NCBI RefSeq assembly: GCF_963678975.1
Contig: NC_089277.1
Span: 23,820,672 to 23,884,671, forward strand
Reading direction: 5' to 3'
Origin: Dysidea avara
Taxonomy: Eukaryota > Porifera > Demospongiae > Dictyoceratida > Dysideidae
Length of the DNA stretch: 64,000 bases
The first letter of the stretch is position 1, and each line of letters begins with the position of its first letter. Position numbers and translations under genes: made by a program. Positions 6,011 to 59,153 of the stretch are shown piece by piece. The notes beneath the pieces were generated by a model. That model was not told the origin of the DNA, did no database searches, and saw nothing but the letters and a program-made list of their open reading frames with translations.

Positions 6011-9000
6011 TAATCATCTTGAGTTATTTCTCACTTTCTGGACTACTAACCATCGTATTTGCTGCTCATAATCAATATCATGTTCATCCTGATGATACCC
6101 CATGTTTACAACCACCTTGTCATACACTAGAATACTTCACTAACAACTCTGATAAGTACTTTGTGTCCGATACAACAATATTCTTTAATATAGGGTTATA
6201 TTACCTCAAACAAAATCATTTGGCAATTCAAAATGTCACTAATGTTTCCCTCATTGGTACACCAAATACCAGTGACCCTACCTCACCTGTAAGTGTCATC
6301 AGATGTTTACCAAAACATCACATATTTTTCTACAATGTCACTAATTTGCTGATAAATGTGTTAAGGTTTGAAGAATGTGGGTGCTCAGTGTCAAATGCTG
6401 GATACGATTATCATTATTTGGCAGCAACATGGTTTCAATACTGTACTAATACGACGATAAGCAATACACATATTTACAACCCAGTGGGATATGGTATAGT
6501 AGCCTTTAATGTGATGGGAAACAGTAACATTGTGAATGTTACTGTAGTAATGGAAAAGTTTCATGGTATCAGTCATGGAACATATTTGAAGTATAGAAAT
6601 GTACACAGAAGTGCTGCAAAAGGTGACGATATCATTTTTAGTATCGACAACATTGTATTTAAAAATGATGATTCTTGTAATTATGATGAAAGCACCCTTA
6701 AAATAGACCTCGCATCCTCTGCTGTGTTCATTAGTATTAAAAATTTCATCTGGAAAGGCAGTAAAAACATAAAGATTACAATAAAGCATCCTTTATCACC
6801 TTTCATGATCTACTTTTACAAATGCAGTTTTGTGCAAAATAGAGTTACGAATGACCTCATTTACTTCTGGGCATCTTGCTTTCTTGAACCCTATGGAAAG
6901 GTAAATGTTATATTTGATGAAGTCACATTCTTACAAGCAAATGCAAAACATCAAGAAAAAAAATGAAGAATCAGGTCCTGCACTGATAAGGTTCAATATG
7001 TTTTCAAATTGCTTTATTCATATTAAATTCAGCAATGTAAAATTTTATTATAATCAGTTAGCTATATTGAAAGTGACATTGGAGAATCAACTATCACAAA
7101 ATCAATCATCTATTATGATTTCAATGGAAGGTTACTTTGTTGCAAAACTAAATATTGCTAGATATACACTAATGTCATTAACAAATGCGCAAGTATATTT
7201 CAATGGAGTTACCAAATTCATTATCAATTCCGCAAGTAAAATTATTTATTTATCTTCTTCCACAATAAGATTATCAAATACTACAACATTTCATGAAAAT
7301 GTTTGTGACAAATTAATTTCTCTGAATTGCAAATGGTGTTATTTGGTGATGTCAGGAAATGCAAATGTAACTATATCCAAAAATGAAGTACGTAAGCAAA
7401 TAATTGGAGTTCCCACCAGAATCAATCATCCTTATCCTTACTGTCTGTTTCAGTACTTTCCATCTATTAGCAGCACGTATAAAGAGTTTCAAATTAATAT
7501 GTTATATAATTTACCCAGCAGAACCAATAGATTACCTACCATAGCGGAATTAAAATTAATTCATGATTCCATCTATCAATTAACATCACATTGTAAATGG
7601 GCTACTGGTGCAGCATTTCAAAATATCACTCCAAAAATTGTAAATGATAACATCATCACCTTAAAAAATGTATATGATATAGTCCAACATCACATAGGTG
7701 ACCACACCACAGTCTGTTATTGTCCACCATCATCACATTACAATTGTAGTGTTGATCAATTAGGTCCTGTATATCCTGGTGAAAATTTGACTGTGGATTT
7801 GTGTCTGCCTTATAACAATGAGGAAATTGGTGTCCTGTACACTGAAACTTACAACAATAATTTACCAAAATCATCTTGTAAAATTTATGAATATAACAAC
7901 ATGCGACATATATTCCACAAAAATCATAGCAAAGTCGTGGATTTTCCTATTACTTCAGCACAATCAAAATTTTGTGAGTTATTCCTAACAGCTCAACCAA
8001 ACTTGTTCATTTCTTATGATGCCTTTTATGTCCACCTTCTTCCATGTCCATTAGGATTTACATTACAACATGGAATTTGTGACTGTGATCCTGATCTTAG
8101 AAAATATATTGATGAGTGTATGATAAGTAGTCAAACAGTGAGACGGCTCTCCAATGTGTACAATGAGCCAGATATCTCAACCTATCAATACAAGGTATCT
8201 ACTGATTGTCCTGTTGACTACTGCCTTCAGAGTACAATAAGGATTAACTTAAGCGATCCAGATTCCCAATGTCAGCCTCACAGAACTGGTCTACTTTGTT
8301 CACAATGTGTAGAAGGGTACAGTATAGTGCTTGGTTCTAATCGGTGTAGAAAGTGTTCTAATCTTTATTTGCTGTTTATAATATATTATGTGTTTTATGG
8401 TTTGTGTCTAACCTTGCTCCTTTTCATCCTTAAGTTGACAGTGACTTCAGGAATTATCTGTGGTTTTATCTTGCATGTTAACATGGTTTGGATCATTAGT
8501 CCTTTATTACATTTACGGGATAGGTTAGTGACAGTTTTAAATTCGTATATTTATACTGCAAATCTTGGACCACCTTTTGAAATGTGCTTTTACAATGGCA
8601 TGAACATGTATGCCAAAATGTGGATGCAGCTTACATTCCCACTTTATTTGATACTGATTGCTGTCTCACACTGCTTGAAGGTTCTTAGTTTACTAATTTG
8701 TTAAGATGCCTTACTGTAGTTATACTGATAGTAAAGTGTCAGTAAACTTAAGTATATGGAACATAATTATTTTACTAAGTTTTAAACTCTCAGTAAAACA
8801 TCAGTGAATGCGGGTTTACTGAAAAACTACTAAAATAACAAACAATTAACTGTTCCATATACTGGGGATATACCACTGTAGTAAACTAAGATACTTCAAG
8901 CAGTGTCATTTATTATAGGTAGTCGTTACTCTAGCAAACTATATCGGTTAACATTTAATAGAGCACTACCAGTACTAGCAACCTTGTTTATGCTTACTTA

Positions 9001-13721: not shown

Positions 13722-15392
13722 TCAGTTTCTATAGCACATATACTTGATAGAACTACGGTGGTTTCGTTTTTTAAAATTACTCACTATTGTTTTCTGGAAA
13801 GAAGAATGTCCACCAATAATCACAAGACTTCTAGCATTTATGGCAATAGTTCTTTGTACTGCTCCTACATATCCACTGTCCACTACTCCATTAGTAGCTT
13901 GTATGAAGTCATTCTCATAAGACTCAATGGATTTGTTGCCATACACAATGTTTAGCACTTTTTGAAATAGTTTAGTTCCTTTTCCAGTATAACTTCCATG
14001 TTTATCATAGTCAAATTTATCAGCTCGCACCATGTCCCCAAATCTGCCCAAGTCAATAGATAAGAAGCCACTTTGACTATTGTTAATACGAAAAGATGTT
14101 AAATAGCGATTTAGTTTACTTGCACATTTATGAAAAAAATTTATTCCGTCTTGATTACGGTCTTCTCTTGGTTTGGCTCTGAAAACTACTGCAATGTACT
14201 GATCAAAATCACAGCCAATGATTTGCTTGACATATTGTCTACTGTCTGATATAAGTCTCTGACTGGGATGAATCATACTCAAAAGCCTACCAGCTCCACC
14301 ATCAACATTAAGGCGTCCAAATTCATTGTCCCCTAATCCAGTAAATGCTACTCGTCCATTTTCAACACCTTGCCATTCACTAAGCCATAATGTAACATCT
14401 TGTTGTTCGTTGTCTATTTCAAAAGAATCAGTAAAATTTTCTGGTGATATTATATAATAATCACTAAACGATACACACACAATGCGGATGACTTCAAACT
14501 GCAGTTTATTAAACAACTTGGAGTGATCACTAAAAAATAATGTCTTTTGCTTTAGGCAGGGAGGATGATAGTTGATTTCTTCACCCACAAAAGTGCCACC
14601 AGTTCCAACATTGTAAGAGATTATTGCTACAATAATTTTCTTTGTTGAAAACTGCGTAAAATTCTTCCAGCTTTCTAATGGTGGCACATCTGATTTCTTT
14701 GCTCGTTTATTCCAGTAGTCAATATCAATGTAGTCATGTAGTCTCAGTGCACCAGACATTGTACCATCACCGTGAAGTAGCTCATGTGAGAACTTCAACT
14801 CTGACATATGGACAAATGGCTCCACTACTGTGAGACCAACAGAGCTGGCCCATCTTTGAAAACAAAACATGTTAAGAATTGCATTGGTCTGTTGCTCCCA
14901 GTAGCTGCTGCACAAAGCATACCTACAGAACCGACGACCCATTGTAGAAGTTGGTTTTAATGATGGAGTCACTTGTTGGGGACTGGCTGAAGTTGATTTA
15001 ACAGTGTGGACACGTGGTATCACTATCTGACGATTGGTTGCAGTTGGAGTTGCATGCTGGTGCTGAGTTGAAGTTGACTGAATGCTTTGTACAGAAAATA
15101 GCATAGCCTGGCTATCGGATATGGTGAAAGGTGAATTGTCATCATTGTATAGGGGTTGCTGAGAAAGAGGGATTATCTTATGATCAATTAAATTTAAATG
15201 ACTAATGTTGGTGATATCTTTAGAATCACTGAATTTTATTTCTGTGTCTTCAGATGCTGAAGGTAGCAATGGTATCATGTTCCTTTTTTTCGTTAACACA
15301 ACTTTGTTCACTTCATCATTATAATAAAATATCAGCAGCGTCAACATGGTACATACCAAAAAAAGAAACAATACACGCAGTCGCAGCTTCAT
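13722..15392 (-). CDS. Type II membrane glycosyltransferase-like protein, paralogue 1
   Basis: A single coding exon of 556 residues. ATG at 15390-15392 is chosen because the six codons upstream begin at TTG. The N-terminus MKLRLRV is followed by a signal anchor (about residues 7-24), then a Ser/Thr/Gln-rich stem to about 150, then the family core. Core landmarks in order: YWEQQTNA, VVEPF, DYIDIDYWN, PCLKQKT, LSEWQGVENGRV, IHPSQR, VVFR, DLGRFGD, YGNKSIESYENDF, DSGYVGAVQRTIA, IIGGHSSFQ. This layout suggests a Golgi luminal enzyme, and the order of elements recalls O-fucosyltransferase-like GT-B proteins. No catalytic motif can be assigned, so the activity is inference. It has the longest stem of the four. 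A splice acceptor (TTTTAG) lies about 25 bp upstream, implying a non-coding 5' exon. AATAAA lies about 100 bp past the stop. Confidence 0.85.
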   Translation of the reverse strand: MKLRLRVLFLFLVCTMLTLLIFYYNDEVNKVVLTKKRNMIPLLPSASEDTEIKFSDSKDITNISHLNLIDHKIIPLSQQPLYNDDNSPFTISDSQAMLFSVQSIQSTSTQHQHATPTATNRQIVIPRVHTVKSTSASPQQVTPSLKPTSTMGRRFCRYALCSSYWEQQTNAILNMFCFQRWASSVGLTVVEPFVHMSELKFSHELLHGDGTMSGALRLHDYIDIDYWNKRAKKSDVPPLESWKNFTQFSTKKIIVAIISYNVGTGGTFVGEEINYHPPCLKQKTLFFSDHSKLFNKLQFEVIRIVCVSFSDYYIISPENFTDSFEIDNEQQDVTLWLSEWQGVENGRVAFTGLGDNEFGRLNVDGGAGRLLSMIHPSQRLISDSRQYVKQIIGCDFDQYIAVVFRAKPREDRNQDGINFFHKCASKLNRYLTSFRINNSQSGFLSIDLGRFGDMVRADKFDYDKHGSYTGKGTKLFQKVLNIVYGNKSIESYENDFIQATNGVVDSGYVGAVQRTIAINARSLVIIGGHSSFQKTIVSNFKKRNHRSSIKYMCYRN

Positions 15393-17597
15393 TGTTAAAG
15401 TTGGTAGCAAGTAACAACTAAAATGGAAAATTCTATATAAATTTATAAGAGGTTAAAACAAAAGTTATTTACTACTGGTTACAACAACAGTATGTAAATG
15501 TCAGGTAACTACCAATTATCATACATGGTATGTACTTGTCAAACATATGGTACCCAAAATAAAACCATGCAAAACCACACAAACACAACAATTTGGCAGT
15601 AGCCATTGGATGAATGGACTAAAAAGAAACTTCCTACCAAACAAGGTGGATTCCAAAAAAGGTGAATGTAGGTACATACTGTTGTTACTTATTACTCAGA
15701 GATGATTCCTTTAAAAACTGAAGAAGGATCTTTACCCTTGCCTGGAATAGGATAACCTGTTTAAATAATTTATTTCATCAAAAATATTTGGTTATGAGAT
15801 CAGTATTTTGTAGTGTGAATAAACTTAGAGAATTATGGGCGTTATCTAATGCTACAGTGATTTTAATAACAGACCATGATAAAATTTCAAAAGCATCTGT
15901 TGTTTCTAGTCCTTAATGGGAAAGCAAAATGTGAGAAATTTGTTTTAAGATGTTTATAGGAAAGATTTATGAATTATACTTATTGGAGTGAGAGCTTAAA
16001 ATTTTCTTAGTTGTACATTCTCAATGACTGTACCATCATGGGAGAATGCTACTTTGAAACGATTAACAGATTTCAACACCAAATGTTGATTGGGAAATTT
16101 GACAATATTACAGAACAATTTTTCCATCCTTAATCAGCGATCTCCCATTTCTTGTGTCAGCTGTCATCCATTATCAGGCCTAGCTACTTCTGCTATCTTG
16201 AGCTGTCTTGACATCTGATTCCATGTGAACATAAATTAGACAATACATGATATTAAAAGTTACTGTTCAAGCTTGAAATTTGCAAGGCAATTTTCTGTCG
16301 TGACTCTTCCTTCCCCCAAGAATCTGAGAGAAGATGGAGTAAATGAAGAAAAATGAGGTAAAGCTTTGAAATGTAATCAATTGCAACAACAATAGGTGTA
16401 TATACAACTAGTACCTGATAGCAGGTTATTGAAAGGGCTAATTTTTCACTGTATGAAAGAAATTAGCTATATATGTAACTAGCAATCATAATAATTTTTT
16501 TTGTGTAAAACGGAATGTCAAATATAAAAATTGAGAAAAAATTTCTCTTTGAAAATAACCTGCTATATAGTACATGACATCATAACATGTTATTATAATA
16601 AGAAACTGATATTTGTACATTATTAAACACTTAATGATAAACCATATGTTGACTTGATTTCATCTTCACTCTTCACAATAAAACTTGTACATAGTTTGCA
16701 AAACAAGCAAAAATATCTAACGGTACGGTTGTACGGTTTAAGTAGGGATCACCCTGAAAATATCACGTGCTACTAAAATTTCTGCCTTTGCAAATCATCC
16801 TAGGAACATCTCATGCAACGAAAATCACCTTACGGAATAGTACTAGTCCATATAATATTAATACACATTAAATATAACAAAACACTTACAGGTGGCCGGG
16901 TATAGAATTTTTTTGAAAAATTGCCAAAAGTTGAATTTTAGTCTCACTACCTGACTGACCACAGTCACAAGGCTGGGGGCCAAATGAAGCAGTGCACAGC
17001 CACCATTTTATGTCACAATAACAAACTCACCAATGGGAAGTGTATTTTGGGGTTCCGACAAGTGTAGGGCCTCTTTGCCTTGTCTTTTCTTTTTTATCTT
17101 CAATCAGGCTGTTTGCCAATGAAACCATACCAAGACTTTACTTTTCTTCAACATATTTATATGCCACAGAATTATTTCAGAGCTGGATTTCAGAAGTGCT
17201 TCAGTCCTGACACTACTACAAGAGGTATACTAGCTAGATATCTGCAAATTCGCAATTGGAATCCCATTCGTAATTAGTCTGGCGGCGCCATGCAAAAGGG
17301 CAGGTACTACCAGACTAGTTTGCGATAAGTTTGAGACCACACCCATCAAATAAAGATCTAGTAAGATTGACTAGAGTACGGAGGCCACACCTCTTCACAA
17401 TCTAGCTCTTTACAGAAAACAAGACCTTTTTGGTCTAGTTATAGCTGTACACCCCTTGCCTGACTCAAGATACTCCAATACAACAGTCACTCTAATACAA
17501 CAGTCATGTATGTATGATGTTCTAATAGAACAGTCACAAGTCTATAGCTGTGCTACAACAAAAAACTAAACAAACTAGAAATTGTTAATTTAAAAGA
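15393..17597. other. Intergenic, no gene recognised
   Basis: Upstream of paralogue 1; it may hold its 5' exon and promoter, but I cannot place them. Copies of the YTCTATTAGA motif, in reverse orientation and partly degenerate, lie at 17471-17507 and 17519-17536. The short open frame at 17080-17277 has no family resemblance. Confidence 0.5.
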
Positions 17598-22394: not shown

Positions 22395-23693
22395 TTATTC
22401 ATAGCAGATATACTTGATTGCATTACTATGTCGCTGCTTCATGTGTAACACTACCGTTTTCTGGAAAGAAGAATGTCCACCAATAATGACAAGATTTCTA
22501 GCATTTATGGCAATAGTTCTTTGTACTCCTCCCACATATCCACTGTCCACTACTCCATTAGCAGCTTGTATGAAGTCATTCTCATAAGACTCAATGGATT
22601 TGTTTCCATACACAATGTTTAAAATTTTTTGAAACAATTCCTTTCCCTTTCCAGTATATTTTCCTTGATCATCAAAGTCAAGTTGATCAGCCTTAGTTTT
22701 GTCCCCAAATCTGCCCATGTCAATAGCCAAGAAAGTAGAAGAATTAGGTAAAGATTTTAAATATTGATCCAGCTGATCTGCACACCCATTGAAATATGCA
22801 ATATCACCTTCCTTAGTGCGAAATACTATGGCAACATACTGATCAAAATCACGGCCTATGATTTGATTGACATATCGCTTGCTGTCAGATATAAGTCTCT
22901 GGCTGGGATGAATCATGCTAACAAGACTATTAATTCCACCTTTAACGTGAAGTCTTCCGAAAATGTTCTTCCCTAATCCAGTAAAGGCTACCCGTCCGTT
23001 TTCAACACCTTGCCATTCACTAAGCCATATTGTAACATTTTCTTTCTGATTACCTATTTTTAAAGGAGCAGCAAATGTTTTTGGTGATATTATATAATGA
23101 CCACTAAATGAGATACACACAACCCTGGCGATTTCAAATTTAAGTGCATTAAACAACTTGAGGTGATCATTAAAAAATAATGTCTTCTGTTTAAGGCAAG
23201 GAGGATGATTATTAATTCCTTCACCCACAAAAGTGCCGCCAGTTCCAACATTATAAGAGATTATTACTACAATAATTTTCTTTGTTGAAAATTGAGTGAA
23301 ATCTTCCCAACTTTTCAATGATGGTATACCTGACTTCTTTGCTCGTTCATTCCAGTAGTCAATATCAATGTAGTCACGAAGTATTAGTGTACCAAACATT
23401 GTACCATTATCGTGAAGCAGCTCATGTGAGAACTGCAACTCTGACATATGGACAAATGGCTCCACTACTGTGAGACCAACAGAGCTGGCCCATCTTTGAA
23501 AACAAAACATGTTAAGAATTGCATTGGTCTGTTGCTCCCAGTAGCTACTGCTTAGTGCATATCTGTAGACTTTTGGTGCATGATGTTTGTTTTTTGCTGT
23601 AACTTCAGTTGAATAACCACTGTAACAAAACAACACTATCAGTATCAAAATACATCCACAAACCCCAAATAGTATATGCTTTGGTTGCTTCAT
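22395..23693 (-). CDS. Type II membrane glycosyltransferase-like protein, paralogue 2
   Basis: A single coding exon of 432 residues with ATG at 23691-23693 (MKQPKHILFG). A hydrophobic anchor spans about residues 8-26, and the stem is only some 15 residues before the core starts at RYALSSSYWEQQTNA. All core landmarks of the family are present: VVEPF, DYIDIDYWN, LSEWQGVENGRV, VVFR, DMGRFGD, YGNKSIESYENDF, DSGYVGGVQRTIA, IIGGHSSFQ. The much shorter stem is the main difference from paralogue 1, to which it is otherwise very close. The upstream sequence is immediately the large inverted-repeat structure at 23779, so promoter and 5' exon must lie inside or beyond it. Candidate AG acceptors lie within 60 bp of the ATG. 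Activity is unassigned; a Golgi enzyme is inferred from topology. Confidence 0.85.
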   Translation of the reverse strand: MKQPKHILFGVCGCILILIVLFCYSGYSTEVTAKNKHHAPKVYRYALSSSYWEQQTNAILNMFCFQRWASSVGLTVVEPFVHMSELQFSHELLHDNGTMFGTLILRDYIDIDYWNERAKKSGIPSLKSWEDFTQFSTKKIIVVIISYNVGTGGTFVGEGINNHPPCLKQKTLFFNDHLKLFNALKFEIARVVCISFSGHYIISPKTFAAPLKIGNQKENVTIWLSEWQGVENGRVAFTGLGKNIFGRLHVKGGINSLVSMIHPSQRLISDSKRYVNQIIGRDFDQYVAIVFRTKEGDIAYFNGCADQLDQYLKSLPNSSTFLAIDMGRFGDKTKADQLDFDDQGKYTGKGKELFQKILNIVYGNKSIESYENDFIQAANGVVDSGYVGGVQRTIAINARNLVIIGGHSSFQKTVVLHMKQRHSNAIKYICYE

Positions 23694-24278
23694 TGATTAG
23701 AAAGTTGATCTACAGCAGCTATGTTGTAATCTGTCAGTCAAGATAATCTGTAATCGAAAGAAACAAAAGTATACAATATATCATACAGTATGGTAGTACT
23801 GTATAGCTATTAGGGATCATGGAGATTTGGGTTTTCTGGCCAAAAATAACCCAAAAACCAGTTTAACAAGACCGTCCAGTATTGGTTAGGTATAAAAAGC
23901 CCTAAAGTGCCTTCTAAATGCTTCCAATACATAGCTACAAAATTTTAAAAGAATTTTATTCAATGGAATTTTCTACTGACTGACTACTGCTTGCCTGCCT
24001 GCCTGCCTGCCTGATGCCTTCAGACAAGTGTAACTCGATAACAGTCGAGGTACGGGCTCACTGTTTGATGTCGCTTTATCCAAAGATGTGCCTTTTGACA
24101 TACCACAACACGTAAAATGCACACATCATGGACTTACCTTTGTCCTTCTTTGTGTCCCATTTCATTTTGCTGACATGTCAATTCGCAGTAGCATGGTGCA
24201 TGGCTTCCCTAATGTTTATTTTAAATGGAAATTGTGCGACTGGATTGATTGCAGAGGCGCTTCTAATACTATTCTTTG

Positions 24279-35132: not shown

Positions 35133-35432
35133 CATAGGCGATTCTAAGGGGGGCCAGGGGGGGGCCATGGCCCCCCCTGTTAAAAAATAACTTCTTAAAA
35201 ATCTTGGGGTAAAGTTGCTGTATAGATTGGCATTGTTATTTTTAGCATTTTTCATGTTTTTAGAACAAATTTTAGGCTGTTTTCAAGCTTTTAAATTGCA
35301 AAAATCCTGCAGCTTCTGGGGGTTGCACCCCCAGACCCCCTGAAAATTCTACTTTATACTATAGCCAAACAACAATAGTTATGCTGTTCCCTACTTGGCC
35401 CCCCCTGTAGGTCAGGTCTAGAATCGCCACTG
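35133..35432. mobile_element. hAT-type MITE, 300 bp, perfect 8-bp target duplication
   Basis: Ends CATAGGCGATTCTA and TAGAATCGCCACTG are inverted apart from two mismatches. CTTATAAG flanks both sides (35125-35132, 35433-35440). An internal GCACCCCCAGACCCC block also occurs near 42120 and 42365, pointing to relatives there. Confidence 0.9.
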
Positions 35433-35787
35433 CTTATAAGGGATAAAAGCTATCAACATGTAGACCAAACATTACATCACCAAGTACAGTAGTTAAATTA
35501 TAATTATATGCATCACAACTACTAAGCCATCCAAGTGCTAACCATACAAACCATGTAAACCTGCACTCTGATGGTATCAAAGCCATTCAACCACTCATTA
35601 TTTCCCATCCTGTGAAATAATTACATAACTTAATTATGCACACTTTTATGGCAAGTGGACTAAAGATTGCAGCTCAGGCTAGCATGGTTGGTATGCCACA
35701 GTTTTGAGAGATGTACAACACAGTTGAAACGCTGGTAAAGAACTGGGACTCAGGTTCAAAATGTGTTGTTGTAAGCTGTGATGATGA
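35433..35787. other. Upstream region of the CXXC-protease gene
   Basis: Positions 35566-35613 (CTCTGATGGTATCAAAGCC) are an inverted copy of a segment near 40670-40700, so part of this region is a dispersed repeat. A Cys-rich open stretch just before the start codon (from 35761) ends in TGA codons. A GTAAG donor-like site at 35770 leaves room for alternative upstream splicing. Confidence 0.5.
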
Positions 35788-38700
35788 ATGTGTGAAAAAT
35801 GCACAAGCGATCATGAGGAATCAACACTAGATGGGCAGGTTGCCAGTGATGAAGCTGTTAAGGAGTGTTCATGGGAAACCATAGAATATGAAGTCGAGTG
35901 TGATATTGATGATGAAACCACACAGTACAGTGATACCACATGGCATGTTGATTTCACACAGCACAGTGATGTCACACAACACGGTGATATCCCAAGCCAC
36001 GATGATGTCACACAGAACGGTGATACCACAAGCCACGATGATGTCACACAGCACGATGATACCACAAGGCACAGTGATGTCACACAGCACGGTGATGTCA
36101 CACAGCACGGTGATGTCACACAGCACGGTGATGTCACACAGCACGGTGATACCACAGGGCATGGTGATACTACAAGGCATAGCGATGTCACACAGCATGG
36201 TGATACCACAAGGCATGGTGATGTCACACAGCACGGTGATACCACAAGGCACGGTGATGTCACACAGCACGGTGATACCACAGGGCATGGTGATACTACA
36301 AGGCATTGTGATGTCACACAGCATGGTGATACCACAAGGCATGGTGATGTCACACAGCACAGTGATACCACAAGGCACGGTGATGTCACACAACACAGTG
36401 ATACCACAAGGCACGGTGATGTCACACAGTACGGTGATACCACAGGGCACGGTGATGTCACACAGCACAGTGATACTACAAGGCATGGTGAGGTCACACA
36501 GCACAGTGATACCACAAGGCATGGTGATGTCACGCAACAGAGTGATACCACAAGGCATGATGATACTGCACAGCTTGAAAAACAGATTATGAAACCAGCC
36601 AAGAGGGCTACCATGCAACAAAATACCATTCTACACAGCAGTATCGAGGAGATTATTGACGGTAATGGAGCTGGTCAGCAAACACAACTGAAAAACTTAG
36701 CAGTCACATCCATTAAAAAAAGCTCAATACACCTGAAGCCTAGTATAAAAGCTCGAGGTCATCCAAAATACTCTTCCAAACTGTGGCCATCAAAATCAAA
36801 GAAAAGACAACACAGTGAAGACAGGTGTAAAGAGAATATTCAGCCAAGTGTGCAAGTTGGCAAAACAAGTAAGTGATTTAGTGTAAAGCAAAATAACGTA
36901 TGTTAAAAACTTTTTAAAGGTAATAATACACAAAGAAAGAGATCCCGTCGATGTGGAGAGTGTATTGGATACACATCCGTGGATTGTCAGAAGTGCTCAG
37001 CATGCCAGGATATGGTCAAGTATGGTGGCCCAGGAAAGAAGAAGCAGTGCTGTGTAAATAGGCGATGTGTTGTTACAGGTTAGTAAGCTAAGCAATGGAT
37101 ATATATGCATTGTATAAATATAAGTATAATTTCTTTTCTACACAGAGCAACATAAATGTAGCTACAATTCAGGTACCAGCCATACTTGGGTTGACCTTTG
37201 TAAACCTGAATGGTGGACACTTAAGCCAGAAGTTAGCAAAGTGGTATGTTGTTTCTATGTCATTCATGACTTACTGTATTTAATGTGCACACATACAAGT
37301 ACTTGATATTTGGCAGGAAGCAAGTCAAGGTATATTTGGGAAAATGGGATCATCTGATATGATGGACATCGATGTATATGCTTTGTTCCCTGGCAACTGG
37401 CTAACAGATAAGGTACTTATTGGTAAACAATACATAATGTACAATCTTGTTATACGCTAGGGAATCACTACGTTTCTAAAGGTTGCTGCAAAACGCTGCC
37501 TACAAATGGTATGAAATTAACTTTTAGCACTGTACATTAACAAAATAACATTACAGAAGGGACTGAATACATTTGTTGCATCCACTTTTCTATACAACAG
37601 TATGTGCCGTAATATGAATTTAGCAAAAAGATGGTACCGAGATGTAAGTAATAAGTAAACTTTTAATTATATCTTAATTTGTAATGTCACTTGATTAAGG
37701 TCAACATTTGTGACTATGAGCTGTGGGTAATTCCTGTCAACATCAACGAGTCACACTGGATACTTGCGGTAAAATATCTTCTGATTGACTGTTATACATA
37801 ACAGCCATGTTTCCAGGTGTTACAGACCACAAAGAAAGAACTGTGGCTATTTGACTCAACTGCAAATGTGTATGTCAGTTGCATCAGTGTCTTTAAGGAA
37901 TGGTTGGTTTCGAAGACAGAGACAACCTGGAGAGATATGAATGCAGCATCAGTGGTGTGCATAATTAGAATTATAGTAAACTAAACGTATAATTATACCT
38001 AATTTAGATCTCAAATATGCCACTACAGTCAAATAGCAGTGATTGCGGTGTCTTTGTTTGTTTGGTAAGTAATACGGTATGTACAACCAGACATGTGTGA
38101 TATCAATTTATTTACTAGTATGCATTACATGAAATGATGGGAGAGCGATCATACCAATTTTCACAGGTACTGTAGTTTTCATTACTTAATATGCAGTGCT
38201 TGAAATAGTGGTTAGACGTGTGACATTTTCGGACTAAAATTCATGCTTGTCTGCTATGATGTGCTCACTATTGATTAAACACTTTCACCAGATAAAATGC
38301 ACGGTACAGCTTAGATGCAACTTAATGCTAGCAAGCATATAACTCTCGGGTGCTAGTACAATGGAACCCCTCTAAAAGGACACCCCTGAACTGAGGACAA
38401 CCTCTTTATAAAGGACATCTGTGAAGGTCCCAAATTAATGAAAGCAGTACTTTATACACCCCTTAACAAAGGACGCCTCTTTACAAGGGACAAAAAATAA
38501 TTCCCCAATGGTGTCCTTCTTAGAGAGGTTCCACTGTAGTTTACTCCCAAGTGTGAGTAACCTACCCGAGAGTATGAGTAGTCTACCTGCAGGTGCGAGT
38601 AAACTAGGTGCAAGCATTAAAACTTTCTATGGAGTTCTGAGAGCTTACCCTTGAGTTCCAGTAATATATGCTCCGTTCATACTTTCCAGACTGAGAACAA

Positions 38701-39389
38701 TCAAATTTACGTGGCTACAGTATTTGTGTACCTACTCAGATTAACGACTGATCCCTCGATTCATTCCATTTTCCAAGTCAATATTCAGAATCAAGCGCAT
38801 CAGCCATGAAAATATTGGCCAAAATATTAAAAGTACTGAATAGTCCTTGAGGCTCGAATCATGAATAGCTCTATGAATAGTCTACTGTAGCTTCACAACC
38901 AGGCCAGGTACATATACGTAGCTAGTACGTACATTTAACATTCGATGAGTTTATCAGTGAGCTCAAATGTTTTACTCGAGCCTCCAGTGGTCCTGTAGGT
39001 ACTCACGAGTGCAAGTAAACCACTCTAGAGTGTGAGTAAATTCCTCGCAAGTAAATGCTAAGTTGCATCTAATCTGTACTGTATGATCAGACTTGACAGT
39101 GTTCCAAGGAAAAATATTTCCAAGCACAAGCTTGTACAAGTATTCATTCAGACATGCTCAAATAAATTCATTTCAAACACCGAGTATGTGCCATACAGTC
39201 TTAGGTATTTGCAGCGATATTAAAAAACTATCTTTACTCAACCTCAGAATTTCCGTTTAAATTAATAGTATATTTAGGATACATGTATCATTCATTAGTT
39301 ACAATACATTCACACAGGGAAAGACACATCGGATAAGAGAGTGGATAACATGGAAGATCACAGAAACTTGTTTGAAGGAAAATCTCTAA
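35788..39389 (+). CDS. CXXC zinc-finger / Ulp1-SENP-type cysteine protease fusion (11 exons)
   Basis: Exons: 35788-36868, 36920-37078, 37146-37243, 37317-37412, 37461-37508, 37557-37643, 37700-37768, 37817-37954, 38008-38064, 38119-38166, 39318-39389. All introns are GT..AG and phases agree, giving 650 residues. Residues about 55-260 are D[VT]T[QR]H[GS] hexapeptides. Residues 366-410 are a CXXC domain (RRCGECIGY..DCQKCSACQDM..KYGGPGKKKQ..C..RRC) that would bind CpG DNA, but the third ligand Cys is Tyr378. Residues 447-650 are a full Ulp1/C48 fold: WLTDK at 474, catalytic H542 (ESHW), D559 (LFDST), oxyanion Q599 and nucleophile C605 (SSDCGVF), ending in the helix RIREWITWKI. A nuclear SUMO- or ubiquitin-like protease tethered to chromatin is inferred. 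Alternatively it is transposon-derived: some eukaryotic DNA transposons carry Ulp1 or CXXC domains, but no transposase is seen here. AATAAA is at 39456-39461. Confidence 0.85.
35953..36565 (+). repeat. Coding minisatellite, 18/36-bp unit
   Basis: Tandem 18-bp units alternate between GATGTCACACAGCACGGT and GATACCACAAGGCACGGT, with point changes, inside exon 1 of the CXXC-protease gene. Unit length is a multiple of three, so copy-number change keeps the frame. The same periodicity leaves long open frames on both strands (for example minus 35811-36629), which are by-products. Confidence 0.95.
38359..38536. mobile_element. TA-flanked MITE in intron 10 (pogo/Tc1-like), 178 bp
   Basis: Ends CAATGGAACCCCTCTAAAAG and CTTAGAGAGGTTCCACTG are imperfect inverts flanked by TA (38357-38358, 38537-38538), with AGGACACC/GGTGTCCT next to the ends. 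It lies inside the only long intron (38167-39317) of the CXXC-protease gene and does not affect coding. Confidence 0.8.
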
Positions 39390-39430
39390 ACTGAATTTAA
39401 TACTCCATGTGCATTATTTAGAACAATACA

Positions 39431-39670
39431 TTAATTTATATGCTTCATACAATCTAATAAACTACTATCTTCATCGTTCCGTTCTTTGGAATGGATTGTT
39501 TTCCATCTCCAGCGAAGGGGCGGCCGCACTTGACCGATGACTCGGAATAGCAGCCTCCTCAATTTCTTCATAAGTCTCGAATCCTCTACGCTAGTAATAC
39601 CATGGCCACGGGCGTTGTGTTCAATATCTCTGTAAACTTTCTGCATCACATCGTGCCACAAAGCAGACAC
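39431..39670 (-). CDS. Possible small or terminal-exon gene, unrecognised
   Basis: The minus-strand frame reads about 84 basic residues (VSALWHDVMQKVYRDIEHN to CMKHIN) and stops at 39431. That is 42 bp from the end of the convergent CXXC-protease gene. The first codon of the listed span is GTG, so an initiator would be the internal ATG of MQKVY (39644-39646). Otherwise this is a last exon after the CAG acceptor near 39688. Codon use looks real (varied, with Arg/Lys/Glu-rich helix-like segments and few repeats), and CpG content is higher than around it. I recognise no family. Confidence 0.35.
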   Translation of the reverse strand: MSALWHDVMQKVYRDIEHNARGHGITSVEDSRLMKKLRRLLFRVIGQVRPPLRWRWKTIHSKERNDEDSSLLDCMKHIN

Positions 39671-42600
39671 AATATCGATACCATCTGATCAGGTCACGTG
39701 ACTCGATTGGTGTCAATAGCATATTGGTGGCCCTTAACGTCACCAACCAATTGGTGTCAATAGCAAAAGCCTTATAGGCTTCCACATCGTCTTACTAACA
39801 ATTTCGTTTCTCACGTGATACAATCCGGGTCAGACATGGATAATTTCAACCGGGTCGGACCCGGATGACCCAGAGAAAATGTGACCCGGTTGACCCGACC
39901 CGGTTTCAACGCTGGTGCATATTATATTGGCTTTCCATTATGTTGCAAACTCTTTGCAGCTAAAAATATGTATGTACACTGCAGAATGTCTATAAACTGT
40001 CGGTACTGAATAAGTCATCACTATCCTTACAAGTAAACATGCAATAAGACCAGATTGCTATAAACTAAGTGTGCTCTCCTAAATCTTAACACAGGACTCC
40101 TTGCTGTAGTGCTCAATCGCTGCCTTATTTCCATTGTCAATAGAGCATATTTGCCATCTGGATTTGTTGTACTCCTGTGAATATCATTGTACTTTTCTCT
40201 ACATCATTTACCACAGGTGGGGGGATCTATTATGGTAATTAAAGATAGTAATTTCAAAGAATTTATGGCAGCAGTTCATAGGGTTCACCACAAACATTAT
40301 TCATAGCCTCATATGCAAAAATTCCATTGTAAATAAAACGAGGGACTTTTACATTGTGAAGATGTTTAAGTTTACTTTGCAATACTACTTATTGTGATTA
40401 CATATACTACTGCTGTAACTACTACTGTTGTGAAAGGATAGCAAGATACAGCTGTATGTATGTACAGCTTGGTTATCCAAGCTCTTCTAGGACACATTGC
40501 TTAATCATCTACCACACTAAGGCAAGTGGACATGAAATGGCAGGATTTGGGCTTATACACCCTGTACATGATAGTTAGGCAGGTCAAATTAACCCTAACA
40601 TGTTTTCCGGCCCAGCTGCACAATAGTTATTCTTATATAGGTTATGATTTAGTTTCACACGAAATAATGTGTGGTTGAATGGCTTTGATACCAACAGAGT
40701 GTCCCTTTATTATCATTGTGAATAATTGTAAACCTCGTATGCATGAGGGTAGTGTCTAATCACTGGACTGGACTACTGGACTGGAATACTGGAATGGACT
40801 ACTGGACTGATAGTTTATTTGGTTTTACACATTTTTAAGGGTGGGGTTACTGTACATTTGGATGACTTGTCACGTGACAACATTTCAGCACTGAGTGTTG
40901 AATATGGTCCTAAAAAGTAGCTGTGATAAGCCAAATGGGTTTGTATTCTATTCACTGCTTAACTCTACTATATAGCAGATACTGACTTGTAGGTATACCC
41001 AAAAATGTTTCTCTCACTCTTAGGCACACATGATTATTGTGATACAACTGCAGACCAATCAAGGTGTAGAGTTTTAGCCTTGAAGTCACTTGTGCATACC
41101 TGCATGACTGTATTTCAAATGAAGAAATGACTACGATCTTGTTAATGTCTACCGCAACGTAACACGACATGCATTGAGAAATGAAATAATGATATGAACT
41201 CTCCATGAGCAGGCGAATAAGATGGTGTATAGGCTTAATTGATTTGAGACTTGCTTCTTGATATATTTCACAGATTTTTAAAAATTTCGCTTTCTCAAGA
41301 TGTATGTCTGTGCAGAGATAGTTACATATGGCAGTGTAACTGTTTCAAGAAGGATACCATCTATCAACAAGATATTCTCATTTTGACGAGCAAGTCATAG
41401 TAAGGGTGTACCAACAACAGACTCAAATCACAGTCAACTCAATGCCAACAAAGCATCTTATGCTACTTTGTGAGTGGAATATATGTAACTGTGTGTAATG
41501 GGGGCACATTAAATTAACCTACTTTTAAACTTGTACACACTGTATGCCGTTGTGCTATGACCATGCACTTTTCTACTCCTACTAACAGCTAATGGCATTG
41601 TAATACAATTAACATAATGCAGACATTTCATTCCAGTAATGAAATATAACCAGTTATGCGATGGGATTAGTTTGTGTGTAGGCGCCTCATTCCATGGCAG
41701 GAAGCTGTACACCCATACATTACATGGCAGCTCTCTGGATGAGATTTTGAGTAGAAATCACTCCTCTTCAACTACCCACTCATCCTGTCGAGATACTGAG
41801 CAAACTCAGACCCCTCCCCGCCCCACATCGCACCATATTTTTTTCTTCGAACAGTGCAGGATTGGTCTCGTGACTGTCCACCAGTATATTTACGTGATGA
41901 TCCGTTCACTTCATTGCATTTGTGTAGCTGTGTAGTCTTTTTTATTGTAGCTGTGTGAATTCATTCTGTAAGGTGGCCTTGCTGCATGGGTTCCCTGTGA
42001 AATCTGGAGGAAAATTTTGCAAGTTGCTAGCTGGTTTTACTTTAAAATTAGCATCAATTTAAAGGCATTTTCAAGCCCGTTTAACTGAATTACAAAAATT
42101 CTGCAGCTCCTGGGGATTGCACCCCCAGACCCCTTGAAAGTCTAATTGCTATAACTAACTGTACACTAGCTGAGCCATATAGCAAGTTTCATGCTATGTC
42201 CCCTGTATGTCAAGTGTACAATTACCTACTTATTAATATTATACATAGCCTAGAAAGTCTGAAGAACAACAGATAGGCTTGAGCATATTTACATAGCTAG
42301 CTAGCAGTGAAATATCACTAAAATTGCATATCTAAGTGTCTAATTTTCAAAAATTTCCTGTGGGGGCATGCCCCCAGACCCCCCCCCCCCCCCCCTAGAA
42401 TGCTCGTGCTTTGCAATTCATAGAGTATGCTTCACACACTGCAGCAGCAAACTCCTCTCTCATTGGCAGCACCATGTATATAGTAGCAATTTCAACATAT
42501 ACAATGGCCTGACCAACTCAATTTTCCCTCCTCCGGCCCTGTTTTGATTATTAGCCCATTTTCAATAAGGCTAAAGTATGCAGTGCACTTTTGGGCTCCT

Positions 42601-50682: not shown

Positions 50683-52161
50683 CTATGAAGAGCATAGATA
50701 CTTTACAGAGTCACGGTGTCGCTGTTTCATATTATACACTATTGTCATTTGAAATTTTGAGTGTCCACCGATAACTACAAGACTCCTAGCATTGATGGCT
50801 ATAGTTCTTTGTAATGCTCCTACATATCCACTGTCCAGTACTCCATTAGTAGCTTGTATGAAGTCATTCTCATAAGACTCAATGGATTTATTGCCATACA
50901 CAATGTGTAAAACTTTTTGAAACAACTTCTTCCCTTCTCCAGTATAACTTCCATGATTGTCAAAGTCAAATTTATTGGCCAGCACCGTGTCCCCAAATCT
51001 ACCCATGTCAATAGCTAAGAAAGCTGTATGGCCAGAACTATTAGGTATAGACTTTAAATGCTTATCCAACTCATCTGCGCACTTATTGAAATAAACATTG
51101 TTACCTTGTATAGTTCGCGTACCCGAAGGTTTTACTCTAAACACTACAGCATTATAGTGACCAAAATCACTGCCAATAACTTGTCTGACATATTGTTTAC
51201 TGTCCATTAGCACTTTCTTGCTGGGGTGAATCATGCTTAGGAGAATATCAAGTCCACCTTGTGTGCGTCCAAATATGTTATCTACTAATCCAGTAAATGC
51301 TACCCGTCCACTTTCAACACCTCTCCATTCACTAAACCATATTGTAATATCTTGTTTCTTATTTTCTATTTGTAGAGAAGCAGAAAATGTCTCTGGTGAT
51401 GTTATGTAATCACTAAATGAGATACACACAACCCTGGTGACTTCAAAGTTTAATTTATTAAACAACTTGGAGTGATCATCAAAAAACAATGTCTTCTGTT
51501 TAAGACAAGGAGGGTGAGTATTAATTTCTTCATCCAAAAAAGTGCCACCAGTTCCAACATTATAAGAGATTATCACTACAATAATTTTCTTTGTTGAATG
51601 TGAACCAAAATTTTTCCAACTTTCTAATGTTGGTACACCTGACTTCTTTGCCCGTTCATTCCAGTAGTCAATATCAATGTAGTCACGAAGTCTTAGTGCA
51701 CCAGATATTGTGCCATCATCGTGAAGTAGCTCATGTGAGAACTTCAACTCTGACATATGGACAAATGGCTCAACCACTGTGAGACCAACAGAATTGGCCC
51801 ATCTTTGAAAACAAAACAAGTTAAGAATACCATTAATTTGTTGTTCCCAGTAACTGCTGCACAGTGTATATCTACGTATCTTATCAATTGGTTTATCAGT
51901 TGGTGTGGATAGAGTCAGTTTTTGGACACTTGTTGTGGATGGTGAAGATGAAGTGACTTGCTTACTATTAGCTGAAATTAATTGATTATTAATGTTGCTT
52001 CTCTGCTCTACAGGAACATGGGTTTGTGCCACTGTGTCTAAACGAAATGATGGCAATTTACTGCTGCTGGTGTTTCTTGGCTTAGTACTGTAATTAATTA
52101 GCAAAACTACTAACACAAAGCTTCCCAAGAATGTAGGTAGAATATATTTTTGGTGCTTCAT
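50683..52161 (-). CDS. Type II membrane glycosyltransferase-like protein, paralogue 3
   Basis: A single coding exon of 492 residues. ATG at 52159-52161 (MKHQKYILP) is used because the four codons upstream begin with TTG. An anchor lies at about residues 8-25, then a Ser/Thr/Gln-rich stem to about 100, then the core from RYTLCSSYWEQQING. The core keeps VVEPF, DYIDIDYWN, FSEWRGVESGRV, VVFR, DMGRFGD, YGNKSIESYENDF, DSGYVGALQRTIA and VIGGHSKFQ. It has small differences from paralogues 1 and 2: ING for TNA, one residue fewer near ITSPETF, and a shorter IFGRTQGG segment that it shares with paralogue 4. An AG acceptor (AAATTAG) lies about 20 bp upstream of the ATG. AATAAA lies some 90 bp past the stop. 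Activity unassigned. Confidence 0.85.
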   Translation of the reverse strand: MKHQKYILPTFLGSFVLVVLLINYSTKPRNTSSSKLPSFRLDTVAQTHVPVEQRSNINNQLISANSKQVTSSSPSTTSVQKLTLSTPTDKPIDKIRRYTLCSSYWEQQINGILNLFCFQRWANSVGLTVVEPFVHMSELKFSHELLHDDGTISGALRLRDYIDIDYWNERAKKSGVPTLESWKNFGSHSTKKIIVVIISYNVGTGGTFLDEEINTHPPCLKQKTLFFDDHSKLFNKLNFEVTRVVCISFSDYITSPETFSASLQIENKKQDITIWFSEWRGVESGRVAFTGLVDNIFGRTQGGLDILLSMIHPSKKVLMDSKQYVRQVIGSDFGHYNAVVFRVKPSGTRTIQGNNVYFNKCADELDKHLKSIPNSSGHTAFLAIDMGRFGDTVLANKFDFDNHGSYTGEGKKLFQKVLHIVYGNKSIESYENDFIQATNGVLDSGYVGALQRTIAINARSLVVIGGHSKFQMTIVYNMKQRHRDSVKYLCSS

Positions 52162-53714
52162 TAATGAAGACAATTGATGCTAATTTAAAGAAAAAATGGA
52201 AAGTTGATTAGGGTATTAACCTGAAAGAAACAGTAACAACATTAATTAGTTTTAACACATGACCCTATCTTTAATGAGAATGTATCCCATACATGAAGTG
52301 GTACTGTTATTAATAAAGGATGTCTACAATGAATCTATCTCTGCAAAACAACGCAGCAGTGTATAAGCCCACACTTAGTTTTCAATAGTCTAAACCCTGG
52401 CCACCACAACACAAAACTCGATCCACAGGCAACTAGTACTCTCTCCCCTAATGAAATGGAAACCTTAAAACCCAAACCACTGCATTATTTCCTACAATTA
52501 TAGAGCTTAATCTGTAATGAATTCTCTATTAGAGCATGATACTTTTTTTTTTCATGATGGTTGAATTTTAAAAACTTTCATGTTACCATTCATCTCTAGA
52601 CCCGCCCTGAACAGTGGTGGATCTAGATATTTTAAAAAGGGATTTTTTGTGGTGGATAAGTAATAAACTGTGACTGGGCCTGCAAAAGTACATGTAGGGT
52701 ATGCATGTGCATGGGGTCTAATGAGGAGCATAAAATTTGAATACTTTTTGAAATTTTCATGATGCATGATCTTTTATATTGTAATGATAATGCTATGTAA
52801 GTTTTAGTTGTTATGCAAATTACAGAATGCACAGTTTTATTCCAGTACTGAGATATCATCTGTACATGTACATGTGGTATAGGTGCTAAAACGCAGGCAT
52901 GGTTTCGAATAATAACACGTCAGAGGACATGGCTACAGAAAATTTGGAATATTGATTAAGGCTATCCAATGCTTTGACTGTGAAACAGTCTAACTGCAGC
53001 AAGGTGAAATTTGTAAATCTGACACTGCTGAATTCCTGAGAAATGAATGTATGCAATAATAATTATTATTATTTTCTAAGTATATACAGGGGCGGATCCA
53101 GAGTTTGGCAAAGGGGTAGGTACATGTGTGGAGCTGGGGGCAGCTCCCCCAGAAGCTAAAGGCATTTTATATCTTTCAGGACTGAAAATTTTGATGTAGA
53201 ACAGTTAAATGTGATAATATCTGAATGGACTGCACATGTATTGATCAGAGTTTTAGGGATAATTAAGTGACAGTCATGAACCTAAAGAATGCGAATGAGA
53301 TACAAAGGATCGCATTTCATTCGCAAAATATTCCTAACAGGCTAAGTGTGCCCATGGGATAGTGCAGCAGATACAAGTGTTCATACCCAGCAACTGTCGA
53401 GGATTTTCAATAGCATTGTGTGTGATGACTGTTCTATTAGAATGTTTGACTGACTGCTGCATTAGAGTATCCTGATTAGGTTTTTCTTGGAGCATGTGCC
53501 CCCTTCCTGACTGATGTAGTACATACCTGTAGTATAATATTCAAGGTGTCACTGTTGTACTGCTGGAGTTTTTCAACAGAACAGTTTAACAACACACAGT
53601 TAATGTGACAAGGTCTGTTTGTTACTTGTACGTGCTACCAACAGGCCATAACCTACTGTACAGTACAGTACTACTTATAGTTACTTACATACATTGTGAG
53701 TGCTTCAAGTTTTT
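52162..53714. other. Intergenic; hAT-like fragments
   Basis: GTGGATCTAGAT-type sequence near 52610 and CAGGGGCGGATCCAGAG at 53088 look like single hAT ends related to 10360. A motif doublet is at 53424-53478, and a partial copy at 52521-52540. No gene is seen. Confidence 0.5.

Positions 53715-55957: not shown

Positions 55958-55982
<25 letters not shown>
55958..55982. repeat. (TA)n microsatellite
   Basis: About 25 bp of alternating TA lie between two LINE remnants, at the 5' break of the YADD-containing one. Confidence 0.9.
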
Positions 55983-55986
<4 letters not shown>

Positions 55987-56039
55987 AATGTACAAACTCA
56001 ATCATGAGTATATTCGTACATATGTAGTTAGTTACTTAT

Positions 56040-56470
56040 TTACAAATTTATATAATTGTTAAATAAATCAAGAGATGGAGCTTGGATAATATGATAATCT
56101 AGTTGGTTCCATAATTTTATTGTAAAAGGAAAGAAGGAGTTCATATAAGCATCTACCCTTGTTGGCAACTGCAGAAATCTTTGATGGTGACCTCTAGTTG
56201 TGGTGTTGCTTGGTCTAAACCGTTGGTGCACATTAATATCTACCATGTCATTAATTATTTTATATATACATTAGTGAGGCTCTCAAATTATTTCTTCGCT
56301 TCTCCAATGTGTGCCATTGTAAACTGTTCAACATTTCTGTCACACTAGCTGTTCTATTATAGTTATTCATCACAAACCTTGCTGATAATACTTGGGCAAA
56401 GGATTCTTTTTAGATTTAGTGGTATTTGGGTTGATAGGTACAAAACGGTTTGCTCTATAAGAGCATAGGA
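56040..56470 (-). mobile_element. LINE remnant (L2/CR1-like), 3' end
   Basis: The minus strand reads NRTASVTEMLNSLQWHTLEK, then RRNNLRASLMYI, NTTTRGHHQRF, and SFFPFTIKLWNQLDYHI, ending at 56040. That is the typical C-terminus of L2/CR1-type LINEs and the same kind as 43300-44070. The last 68 codons are open; upstream is broken. Confidence 0.75.
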
Positions 56471-57559: not shown

Positions 57560-59014
57560 TTAAGTGTAAGATCCATAGCATATTAACTTGACAGAGTCCC
57601 TGTGTCGTTTCGACAAATTCTGAATAATGATCTTCTGAAAATTTGAGTGCCCACCAACAACTACAAGACTTCTGGCATTCATGGCTATTGTCTTTTGTAC
57701 GGCTCCAATGTACCCACTATCCATTACTCCATCTGTGGCCCGCACAAAATCATCATCATAACTGCTAATAGATTTGTTTCCATACACCAAATTTAAAAAT
57801 CGTTGAAATAATTTAATTCCATTTCCAGTGTATGCACCTTGTGAATTGTAGTCAAAAGTATCAGCTCGTACCATGTCTCCAAATTTACCCATGTCAATAG
57901 CTAGGAATGATTTACGATGACTAGTAGAATTTTGAGCCACAGTTTTCAAATGGTTTTCTAGTAGCCCTGCACAGGTGCTATAGTACTCAACATTTTGTTC
58001 TACAGTGTAGTCATAATCAGGTTTTACTCTTATAACCACTGCATCATACTGATCAAATTCTACACCGAGGACTTGGTGTACGTATCTTTTACTATCAGAT
58101 AAAAGTCTTTTACTGGAGCGTATCATGGTTAGTAAGTTATCTTGCCCACCCTGGGTACGTCCAAATTTGTTTTGTCCTAATCCGACAAAAGATATCCTAC
58201 CATTTTCAACACCACGCCACTCTGTAAACCACACTGTAACATCTTCTTTACCGTCAATCTGGAGGCCGGCATTAAAAGTTTCTGGAGTCATTATGTGCTC
58301 AAAAAATGAAAAGCAGACAACCCGAACGGCTTCAAAATGAAGTATACGAAAAAGTTTGGCATGCTTTTCAAAAAACCATGTCTTCCATTTTAAGCAGTTG
58401 GGATGGCTCAGAATTTCATCATTTACATAAGTGCCACCAGCACCAAAGTGTGACATTATTACAACAATAATTTTCTTTGTTGAATGTAGAATAAAATTTT
58501 CCCAAGTTTCTAAAGGTGGGACATCCCACTCACTGGCCCTTTCATTCCAATAATCTATATCAACATAATCATGGAGTTTTAATGTGTTAGACATAGAGTT
58601 GTTATACAACACTTCCTCTGGGAACTTCAACTCTGACTGACATGCAAATGGTTCGACAACAGTTAGCCCCACAGAGTGTGCCCACCTTTGCATACAGAGC
58701 ATGTTAATAACTGCATTAGTCTGTTGTTCCCAATAACTGCTACTGATTGCATATCGGCGAGGCTTTCGTACGATATCTTGTGGAGGAGAATTCAAGTTCA
58801 CATCACCATTTGCATTTCTGCGAAGTATGCCATTATCATTATTATCATCTGACAGCTCTGCAACACCTTGTGATAACAGTGATGTTGACCACAACAATTC
58901 AGCACTTTCATTCTTTTCTGAAGGTTTACAGCAATTGTAGGTGCTGGTGTATACAAAAGATAATAGCAACAAACTTATCACCACAGCAAGGATGACACGA
59001 GTTGTCTGTTTCAT
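57560..59014 (-). CDS. Type II membrane glycosyltransferase-like protein, paralogue 4 (most diverged)
   Basis: A single coding exon of 484 residues. ATG at 59012-59014 (MKQTTRVILAVV) is chosen over the GTG codons upstream. An anchor lies at about residues 7-24, with an acidic and Asn/Asp-rich stem to about 85. The core starts at RYAISSSYWEQQTNA and keeps VVEPF, DYVDIDYWNERA, FTEWRGVENGRI, VVIRVKP, DMGKFGD, YGNKSI, DSGYIGAVQKTIA and VVGGHSNFQ. It differs from the other three at many sites: FACQSELKF for FVHMSELKF, HFGAGGTYV for NVGTGGTFV, and SYDDDFVRATDGV for SYENDFIQATNGV. It is therefore the outgroup of the cluster. A CTGCAG acceptor lies about 25 bp upstream of the ATG. Activity unassigned. 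Confidence 0.85.
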   Translation of the reverse strand: MKQTTRVILAVVISLLLLSFVYTSTYNCCKPSEKNESAELLWSTSLLSQGVAELSDDNNDNGILRRNANGDVNLNSPPQDIVRKPRRYAISSSYWEQQTNAVINMLCMQRWAHSVGLTVVEPFACQSELKFPEEVLYNNSMSNTLKLHDYVDIDYWNERASEWDVPPLETWENFILHSTKKIIVVIMSHFGAGGTYVNDEILSHPNCLKWKTWFFEKHAKLFRILHFEAVRVVCFSFFEHIMTPETFNAGLQIDGKEDVTVWFTEWRGVENGRISFVGLGQNKFGRTQGGQDNLLTMIRSSKRLLSDSKRYVHQVLGVEFDQYDAVVIRVKPDYDYTVEQNVEYYSTCAGLLENHLKTVAQNSTSHRKSFLAIDMGKFGDMVRADTFDYNSQGAYTGNGIKLFQRFLNLVYGNKSISSYDDDFVRATDGVMDSGYIGAVQKTIAMNARSLVVVGGHSNFQKIIIQNLSKRHRDSVKLICYGSYT

Positions 59015-59153
59015 TGATGAAATCACCACAAGTCAGCCTGCAGAAATATGAAGCAAATTAACTGTGAAATTAATCCTTATGTCTGTTACTGTATGCTACA
59101 AAGGTTTATGGCTGGAATTTTTACCTATTTGCCTCCAAAATTAATTCCTGCTG

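Follow-up and report, generated by a model that had tools for sequence, protein, structure and literature searches.

Is the locus at positions 35,788 to 39,389 of a 64,000-nucleotide stretch of the Dysidea avara genome a host gene that couples a DNA-reading finger to a SUMO protease? The stretch, which we call the window, lies on NC_089277.1 (contig C6 in what follows; the genome searched comprises 550.8 Mb in 108 contigs). A sequence-only reading had found there an 11-exon frame joining hexapeptide repeats, a CXXC zinc finger and a Ulp1/SENP-type cysteine protease domain (C48), and had taken it for a SENP that reads CpG. Comparison with the rest of the genome leads elsewhere: the locus is very probably a copy of a DNA transposon of the Mutator superfamily that spread recently and has since decayed.

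The exon structure itself is sound. When the 11 exons were spliced anew, GT..AG sites were found at all ten introns, and the 650-residue product has a single stop codon, at its end:

35788-36868, 36920-37078, 37146-37243 and 37317-37412, forward strand: exons 1 to 4, by re-splicing
37461-37508, 37557-37643, 37700-37768 and 37817-37954, forward strand: exons 5 to 8, by re-splicing
38008-38064, 38119-38166 and 39318-39389, forward strand: exons 9 to 11, by re-splicing

These predicted junctions are supported by the sequence and by their conservation in the sister copies described below. Profile searches, which the reading had named as its own check, place both domains above their Pfam cut-offs: zf-CXXC at residues 365-410 (2.5e-9; 37.4 bits against a cut-off of 26.5) and Peptidase_C48 at residues 474-627 (8.1e-14; 52.4 bits against 20.7). 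The closest solved structures by sequence are SENP1 (1.4e-15) and the CXXC domains of KMT2B (2.4e-8) and DNMT1 (4.4e-8). His542, Asp559, Gln599 and Cys605 all lie where the reading had put them, in the order seen in the C48 catalytic domains of SENP1, SENP2 and yeast Ulp1, and the hexapeptide repeats are encoded by a 36-bp tandem array of 17.9 copies. The CXXC finger was recognised correctly as to its family, and it carries the KQ dipeptide that is also seen in family A (below), but its zinc frame is incomplete: seven of the eight ligands are in place and the third cysteine is replaced by tyrosine. That such a finger would read unmethylated CpG, and that such a protease would remove SUMO, follows from homology.

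The nature of the locus becomes clear from its copies elsewhere. A 290-residue query spanning the CXXC and C48 domains gave at least 145 matches over the genome (135 of 282 candidates scored). Eight places carry the same exons at high identity: the window copy on C6, two on C9 (C9a and C9b), and one each on C2, C3, C10, C12 and C15. We refer to them as family A. The non-repeat DNA of the seven sisters is 96.6-99.1% identical to the window, and the introns are retained, so the copies arose by duplication at the DNA level and are not retrocopies. In C9a, a single open exon of 883 residues runs from the core domain of a Mutator-like element (MULE) transposase through a SWIM region and the hexapeptide repeats to a splice donor before the CXXC exon; its first 538 residues match ZSWIM1-3_RNaseH-like (PF21056, 3.8e-38) and MULE (PF10551, 2.1e-15). 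Close to the 5' end, another exon is similar to ZSWIM3_N (5.2e-5; 24.2 bits, under the cut-off of 27.8). What had been read as a host SENP is thus the C-terminal half of a MULE transposase in the sister copies, which also read through position 35788 from upstream, so that the start codon assigned there is not genuine.

The ends of the copies agree with this. Terminal repeats of about 140-150 bp, starting GGCTTTTGCTATTGACACCA, are present at both ends of C10 and C9a, and the repeat was detected at 17 places in the genome. Both ends could be read in five copies: C9a (TAATAAGTT) and C9b (TTTTTATTT) have exact 9-bp target duplications, while C10 has a run of A, C2 a near-match and C3 an unclear case. 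The family thus has the DDE domain of MULEs (in C9a), long terminal inverted repeats and a target duplication of the length known for the Mutator superfamily, given as 8-11 bp in the main text of a MULE survey (PMC6446971). We are almost certain that the sister transposase is, as predicted from the assembled exons, one protein: a MULE DDE domain, a SWIM-like finger, a repeat linker, a CXXC finger and a Ulp1/C48 domain. Some observations count against this assembly. The SWIM match in family A scores 17.3 bits, under the Pfam cut-off of 19.6, and no single copy was seen to be intact from end to end. In C9a exons 2-9 are open and homology breaks after exon 9; in C10 and C9b exons 2-11 are open, and the transposase exon of C10 is split over two frames.

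Measured against its sisters, the window copy is a 5'-truncated fragment:

35662..39771, forward strand: 5'-truncated copy of a family-A MULE transposon, by homology to the sisters, the 3' end being set by the sisters and the terminal repeat
35662..35787, forward strand: C-terminal remnant of the transposase with a premature stop, by comparison with the sisters
35788..36868, forward strand: exon 1 as first read, corresponding to the 3' part of the sisters' MULE-SWIM-repeat exon
35919..36564, forward strand: 36-bp tandem repeats encoding hexapeptides
36920..37078, forward strand: exon 2, the CXXC finger with Tyr as third ligand (domain match 36931-37068)
37146..37243, forward strand: exon 3, linker
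37317..38166, forward strand: exons 4-10, the C48 domain
39318..39389, forward strand: exon 11, C-terminus and stop
39621..39771 (C6:23860292-23860442), reverse strand: 3' terminal inverted repeat, 94% identical to the 5' repeat of C9a

Homology begins at 35662 in five of the seven sisters (the stretch is unmatched in C3 and C12) and stops near 39771 in those extended that far. The MULE and SWIM-like coding part and the 5' terminal repeat are missing. Comparing the 5' part of C9a with the whole window matched only the 3' terminal repeat and one insert, and the MULE-SWIM part has no protein-level match anywhere in the window; Pfam searches of ten other open reading frames (ORFs) of the window found no transposon protein among them. 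A displaced 5' part inside the window is therefore ruled out, the sole other match, at 55969-56380, being an unrelated interspersed repeat (412 bp, 98% identical to an insert of C9a that is missing from C10). Without a transposase domain, a SWIM-like finger or a 5' repeat, the window copy is unable to move itself and is probably inert.

The part that remains has begun to decay. The start codon as first read has a premature stop and a 2-bp insertion at it or immediately upstream, and the third zinc ligand, tyrosine here, is cysteine in all seven sisters. Six sisters have all eight cysteines and the C15 copy is damaged; by this count of ligands the window copy does not qualify as a functional type-1 CXXC protein. 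Over exons 2-11 it differs from C9b by seven nonsynonymous and two synonymous changes, a ratio of 0.9, against 0.26-0.52 in four compared sisters; the ratio is what neutral decay looks like, though nine differences are few. The sequence-only reading was right that CXXC and C48 are joined in one frame, and the fusion is recurrent, as shown below; its host SENP with a DNA-reading finger does not survive, the window copy being truncated at its 5' end, broken, and damaged in the finger itself.

Two repeats lie around the element. A 41-bp inverted repeat (95% identity, 35564-35604 and 40661-40701) was considered as a pair of transposon ends and ruled out, as the copy boundaries are 35662 and 39771; it lies outside them and perhaps belongs to another mobile element. 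Just outside the element, up- and downstream, stand the two units of a direct repeat, each some 70 bp long (83% identity, 35280-35345 and 42068-42139).

The joining of finger and protease recurs outside family A. A second family, B, keeps the order MULE, SWIM, CXXC, C48:

C13:315700-319700: family B copy
C2:33031300-33034700: family B copy
C14:9772000 onward: family B copy

Between A and B, the ratio of nonsynonymous to synonymous substitution rates (dN/dS) is 0.06 for the MULE-SWIM exon (428 codons), 0.16-0.18 for CXXC (48 codons) and 0.07-0.11 for pieces of C48 (64-117 codons); these ratios are rough, since MULE and C48 are almost saturated at synonymous sites (dS 1.9-2.7). Judged by them, CXXC and C48 are maintained as parts of the transposon while it is active, and the architecture is selected. 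A remote element (L002, C2:14452426-14455563) has SWIM (7.2e-7), CXXC (8.5e-16) and C48 (3.2e-8) in the same order. In another (L067, C9:9206000-9215999) the protease is of the ovarian-tumour (OTU) type: ZSWIM1-3_RNaseH-like (6.8e-14), SWIM (9e-5), CXXC (3.1e-14) and OTU (1.4e-14). SWIM scores above its cut-off in L067, L002 and L064.

Over the whole genome, 150 of 193 CXXC candidates were scored, all above the cut-off, and compared with 150 scored of 264 candidates for PF21056 (MULE-type), 148 OTU matches, and 76 C48 matches together with 32 chosen by hand from the matches of the CXXC-C48 query. A MULE-type domain lies upstream on the same strand of at least 47 of the 150 CXXC matches within 10 kb, and of at least 36 within 5 kb; the reversed order and the opposite strand gave one case each, and random shifts averaged 0.19, with at most 2 (n=200). 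OTU follows within 5 kb downstream in at least 65 of the 150 and precedes none (shift mean 0.115, maximum 2). C48 lies downstream of at least 14, eight of them family A including the window and three family B, and upstream of none. At least 17 CXXC matches have both MULE and OTU and at least 10 both MULE and C48; none of the 150 has both proteases among the scored matches. Altogether at least 99 of the 150 are partnered; these counts are lower bounds, as in at least one of the unpartnered matches, L008, inspection by eye shows a piece that resembles OTU. The architecture is genuine and occurs repeatedly in this genome. No viral contig matched the pattern; five stretches of prokaryote genome contigs fit a pattern and none is a relative. 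Gene models of the CXXC-SENP or CXXC-OTU kind in this genome are suspect as transposons, because at least 99 of the 150 scored CXXC matches adjoin transposon-type partners.

Some other matches from these searches stand apart. L001 and L006 (C3:17368803-17375181) are neighbouring frames of 394 and 372 residues, one on each strand. They contain PHD-like and CXXC motifs, CXXC occurring twice in one of them, and their motifs mark them as CFP1-like host genes. Another dispersed repeat that carries Ulp1 is represented by about 18 C48 matches, nearly identical and in 165-residue frames (C1:63779406 and others), near which the scored matches include neither MULE nor CXXC. L089 and L090 belong to a MULE family without a detected CXXC and end in long tandem arrays of about 79 bp, similar to the C-terminal minisatellites noted for Rehavkus and Phantom.

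The soundness of the transposon fingers was judged from the 60 best-scoring of the 91 partnered CXXC matches outside family A, a choice biased towards intact fingers. All eight zinc ligands are present in 57 of the 60, which comprise 42 distinct fingers; one has an internal stop, and several have a stop directly before the finger. KQ or RQ stands at the CpG-contact dipeptide in 34 of the 60, the contact motif given for type-1 CXXC domains in a passage of PMC3685328; CpG binding is accordingly less certain for the families with KK or KR. The intact family-A sisters share the eight cysteines and KQ with the CXXC domains of DNMT1, KMT2B and KDM2B, but the carrier here is a transposase, and the window copy has seven of the eight ligands. 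Likewise the C48 domain, a predicted protease, is here part of a transposase, unlike that of the SENPs.

The setting of the insertions was examined through CpG content. CpG observed/expected is 0.39 in the window and averages 0.35 over 20 arbitrary 1-kb stretches, a depletion as in methylated genomes, and the genome is probably methylated. Five DNA methylase matches were found, one a whole open frame on C4 and the other four forming two tandem sets on C9 (C9:17726500-17752737), about 23 kb apart, the first 12 kb downstream of a CXXC match; this suggests a duplicated DNMT1-like gene. The 1-kb flanks of family-A ends have a mean CpG observed/expected of 0.66 (12 ends of 7 insertions, one of which, C15x, is a terminal repeat some 36 kb from the C15 coding copy), and exceed the arbitrary stretches with p=0.0004 per insertion. 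A preference for CpG-rich surroundings is suggested, yet it is not tied to CXXC.

Ulp1 and OTU domains are already known from transposons. Animal MULEs such as MuDR-6_HM, Phantom and Rehavkus share the MULE domain with the elements described here and have SWIM fingers, and MuDR-6_HM has an ovarian-tumour gene, while some animal MULEs have a minisatellite after or in the C-terminus (PMC6446971, main text). The main text of that survey (Dupeyron et al. 2019) contains no occurrence of cxxc, ulp1 or sponge. We found no report of CXXC in a transposase in the open-access papers searched, a search that left Repbase and most subscription journals outside.

The domains, their order and linkage, the selection on them and their recurrence are seen in the sequence; each biochemical activity and the role described next are inferred. 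The CXXC finger would tether the transposase, or the complex it forms with DNA, to unmethylated CpG, either in active CpG-rich chromatin or at unmethylated ends of the element itself. Adjacent silencing or repair factors would lose their SUMO (ubiquitin in the OTU families) to the protease, and the new copy would remain expressed, or the break be repaired. We put forward this local tethering and stripping tentatively, as one possibility among several. The broader proposal, an animal Mutator clan with an epigenetic guidance-and-clearing module (a CXXC reader plus one of two unrelated deconjugases, Ulp1 or OTU) that actively targets unmethylated CpG, is in our view doubtful. If it is true, a eukaryotic cut-and-paste transposon would choose such targets in a CpG-depleted, probably methylated genome, and the module would counter silencing by SUMO or ubiquitin where the element lands. 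If the CXXC finger works, a DNA transposon would be reading the host's methylation map with a domain of the DNMT1/KMT2/KDM2 type and bringing its own deconjugase; it would then become testable how transposons locate active chromatin when an animal genome is methylated, and why unrelated transposons repeatedly carry Ulp1 and OTU. The single locus is a fossil, and it is the clan that specialists in CXXC proteins and in transposons would find surprising.

Several findings pull against such guidance. The dipeptide is KK or KR in 26 of the 60 sampled fingers, and 51 of the 150 CXXC matches have no partner by our criteria. The flank set covers 12 of the 17 terminal-repeat places. In a MULE family without a detected CXXC the flanks give 0.49, 0.23, 0.25, 0.47 and 0.77, a mean of 0.44 from five of seven ends that were usable; this small control differs significantly neither from family A (p=0.20) nor from background (p=0.40). 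Mutator elements are reported to insert in or near genes (abstract of PMC6446971), which confounds the CpG signal of the flanks. The target duplications are AT-rich, so the exact cut site is not set by CXXC.

Two other functions for the module have to be weighed, neither of which we consider likely. It may be an anti-silencing factor for the element's own copies and not a chooser of targets, like VANC/KIU of the VANDAL MULEs. Ulp1 occurs in Mutator transposons of hydra, lancelet, Arabidopsis, maize, rice and melon, according to passages of PMC2836005 and PMC13317346; all are Mutator-type transposons carrying Ulp1/C48, as here, and neither set of passages names CXXC. In the passages of PMC13317346 on Arabidopsis VANDALs, KIU, the Ulp1-bearing VANC genes, are linked to hypomethylation of related elements, so that Ulp1 is paired with induced hypomethylation; the same passages place Ulp1 in a separate gene of non-TIR elements and mention no CXXC, which speaks against the parallel. 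The second possibility, which we rate no differently from the first, is that the proteases serve excision or repair or stabilise the transposase, the CXXC being only a general DNA-binding finger. Roles of this kind are proposed for Ulp1 and OTU in Ginger1 (PMC2836005), where a C-terminal OTU or Ulp1 varies between families and Ginger1-9_HM combines Ulp1 with a PHD finger; the Ginger1 transposase is, however, like a Gypsy integrase and not a MULE, and its finger is PHD and not CXXC. The 26 fingers of 60 without KQ or RQ would suit a general DNA-binding finger, whereas the full zinc frame in 57 and KQ/RQ in 34 do not.

At the level of the window copy, we think it very unlikely that the fragment has been domesticated and that the host expresses and retains it as a CXXC-C48 protein. 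In favour of this, exons 2-11 are open, no catalytic residue is lost, and vertebrate ZSWIM1/3 probably descend from such transposases, consistent with the PF21056 match. Against it, the identity of about 98% to mobile sisters leaves little elapsed time, dN/dS is about 0.9 (on nine differences only), and a zinc ligand is lost. That CXXC and C48 are separate genes, brought together by chance or by a splicing artefact, is highly improbable given that their order and splice junctions are the same in the sisters and in family B, with low dN/dS, and that a remote element repeats SWIM-CXXC-C48. A lineage-specific host SENP with a CXXC finger coupling CpG reading to deSUMOylation, for which both domains above cut-off in one frame and open exons 2-11 might speak, we consider next to impossible and have dropped: a host gene would be maintained and free of transposon ends, whereas here there are eight dispersed copies, terminal repeats and target duplications, an exon 1 that belongs to the transposase in the sisters, and decay by a lost zinc ligand, a stop and a frameshift.

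Away from the transposon copy, the window holds two further groups of ORFs. Four related ORFs of 433-576 residues have no Pfam match above cut-off and form a local tandem family:

13722-15452, reverse strand: ORF of the tandem family
22395-23696, reverse strand: ORF of the tandem family
50683-52179, reverse strand: ORF of the tandem family
57560-59032, reverse strand: ORF of the tandem family

At 5980-8704 two ORFs overlap, one with a match to DUF7630 (2.7e-6, barely above cut-off); the pair is possibly a single gene with a frame break or an intron.

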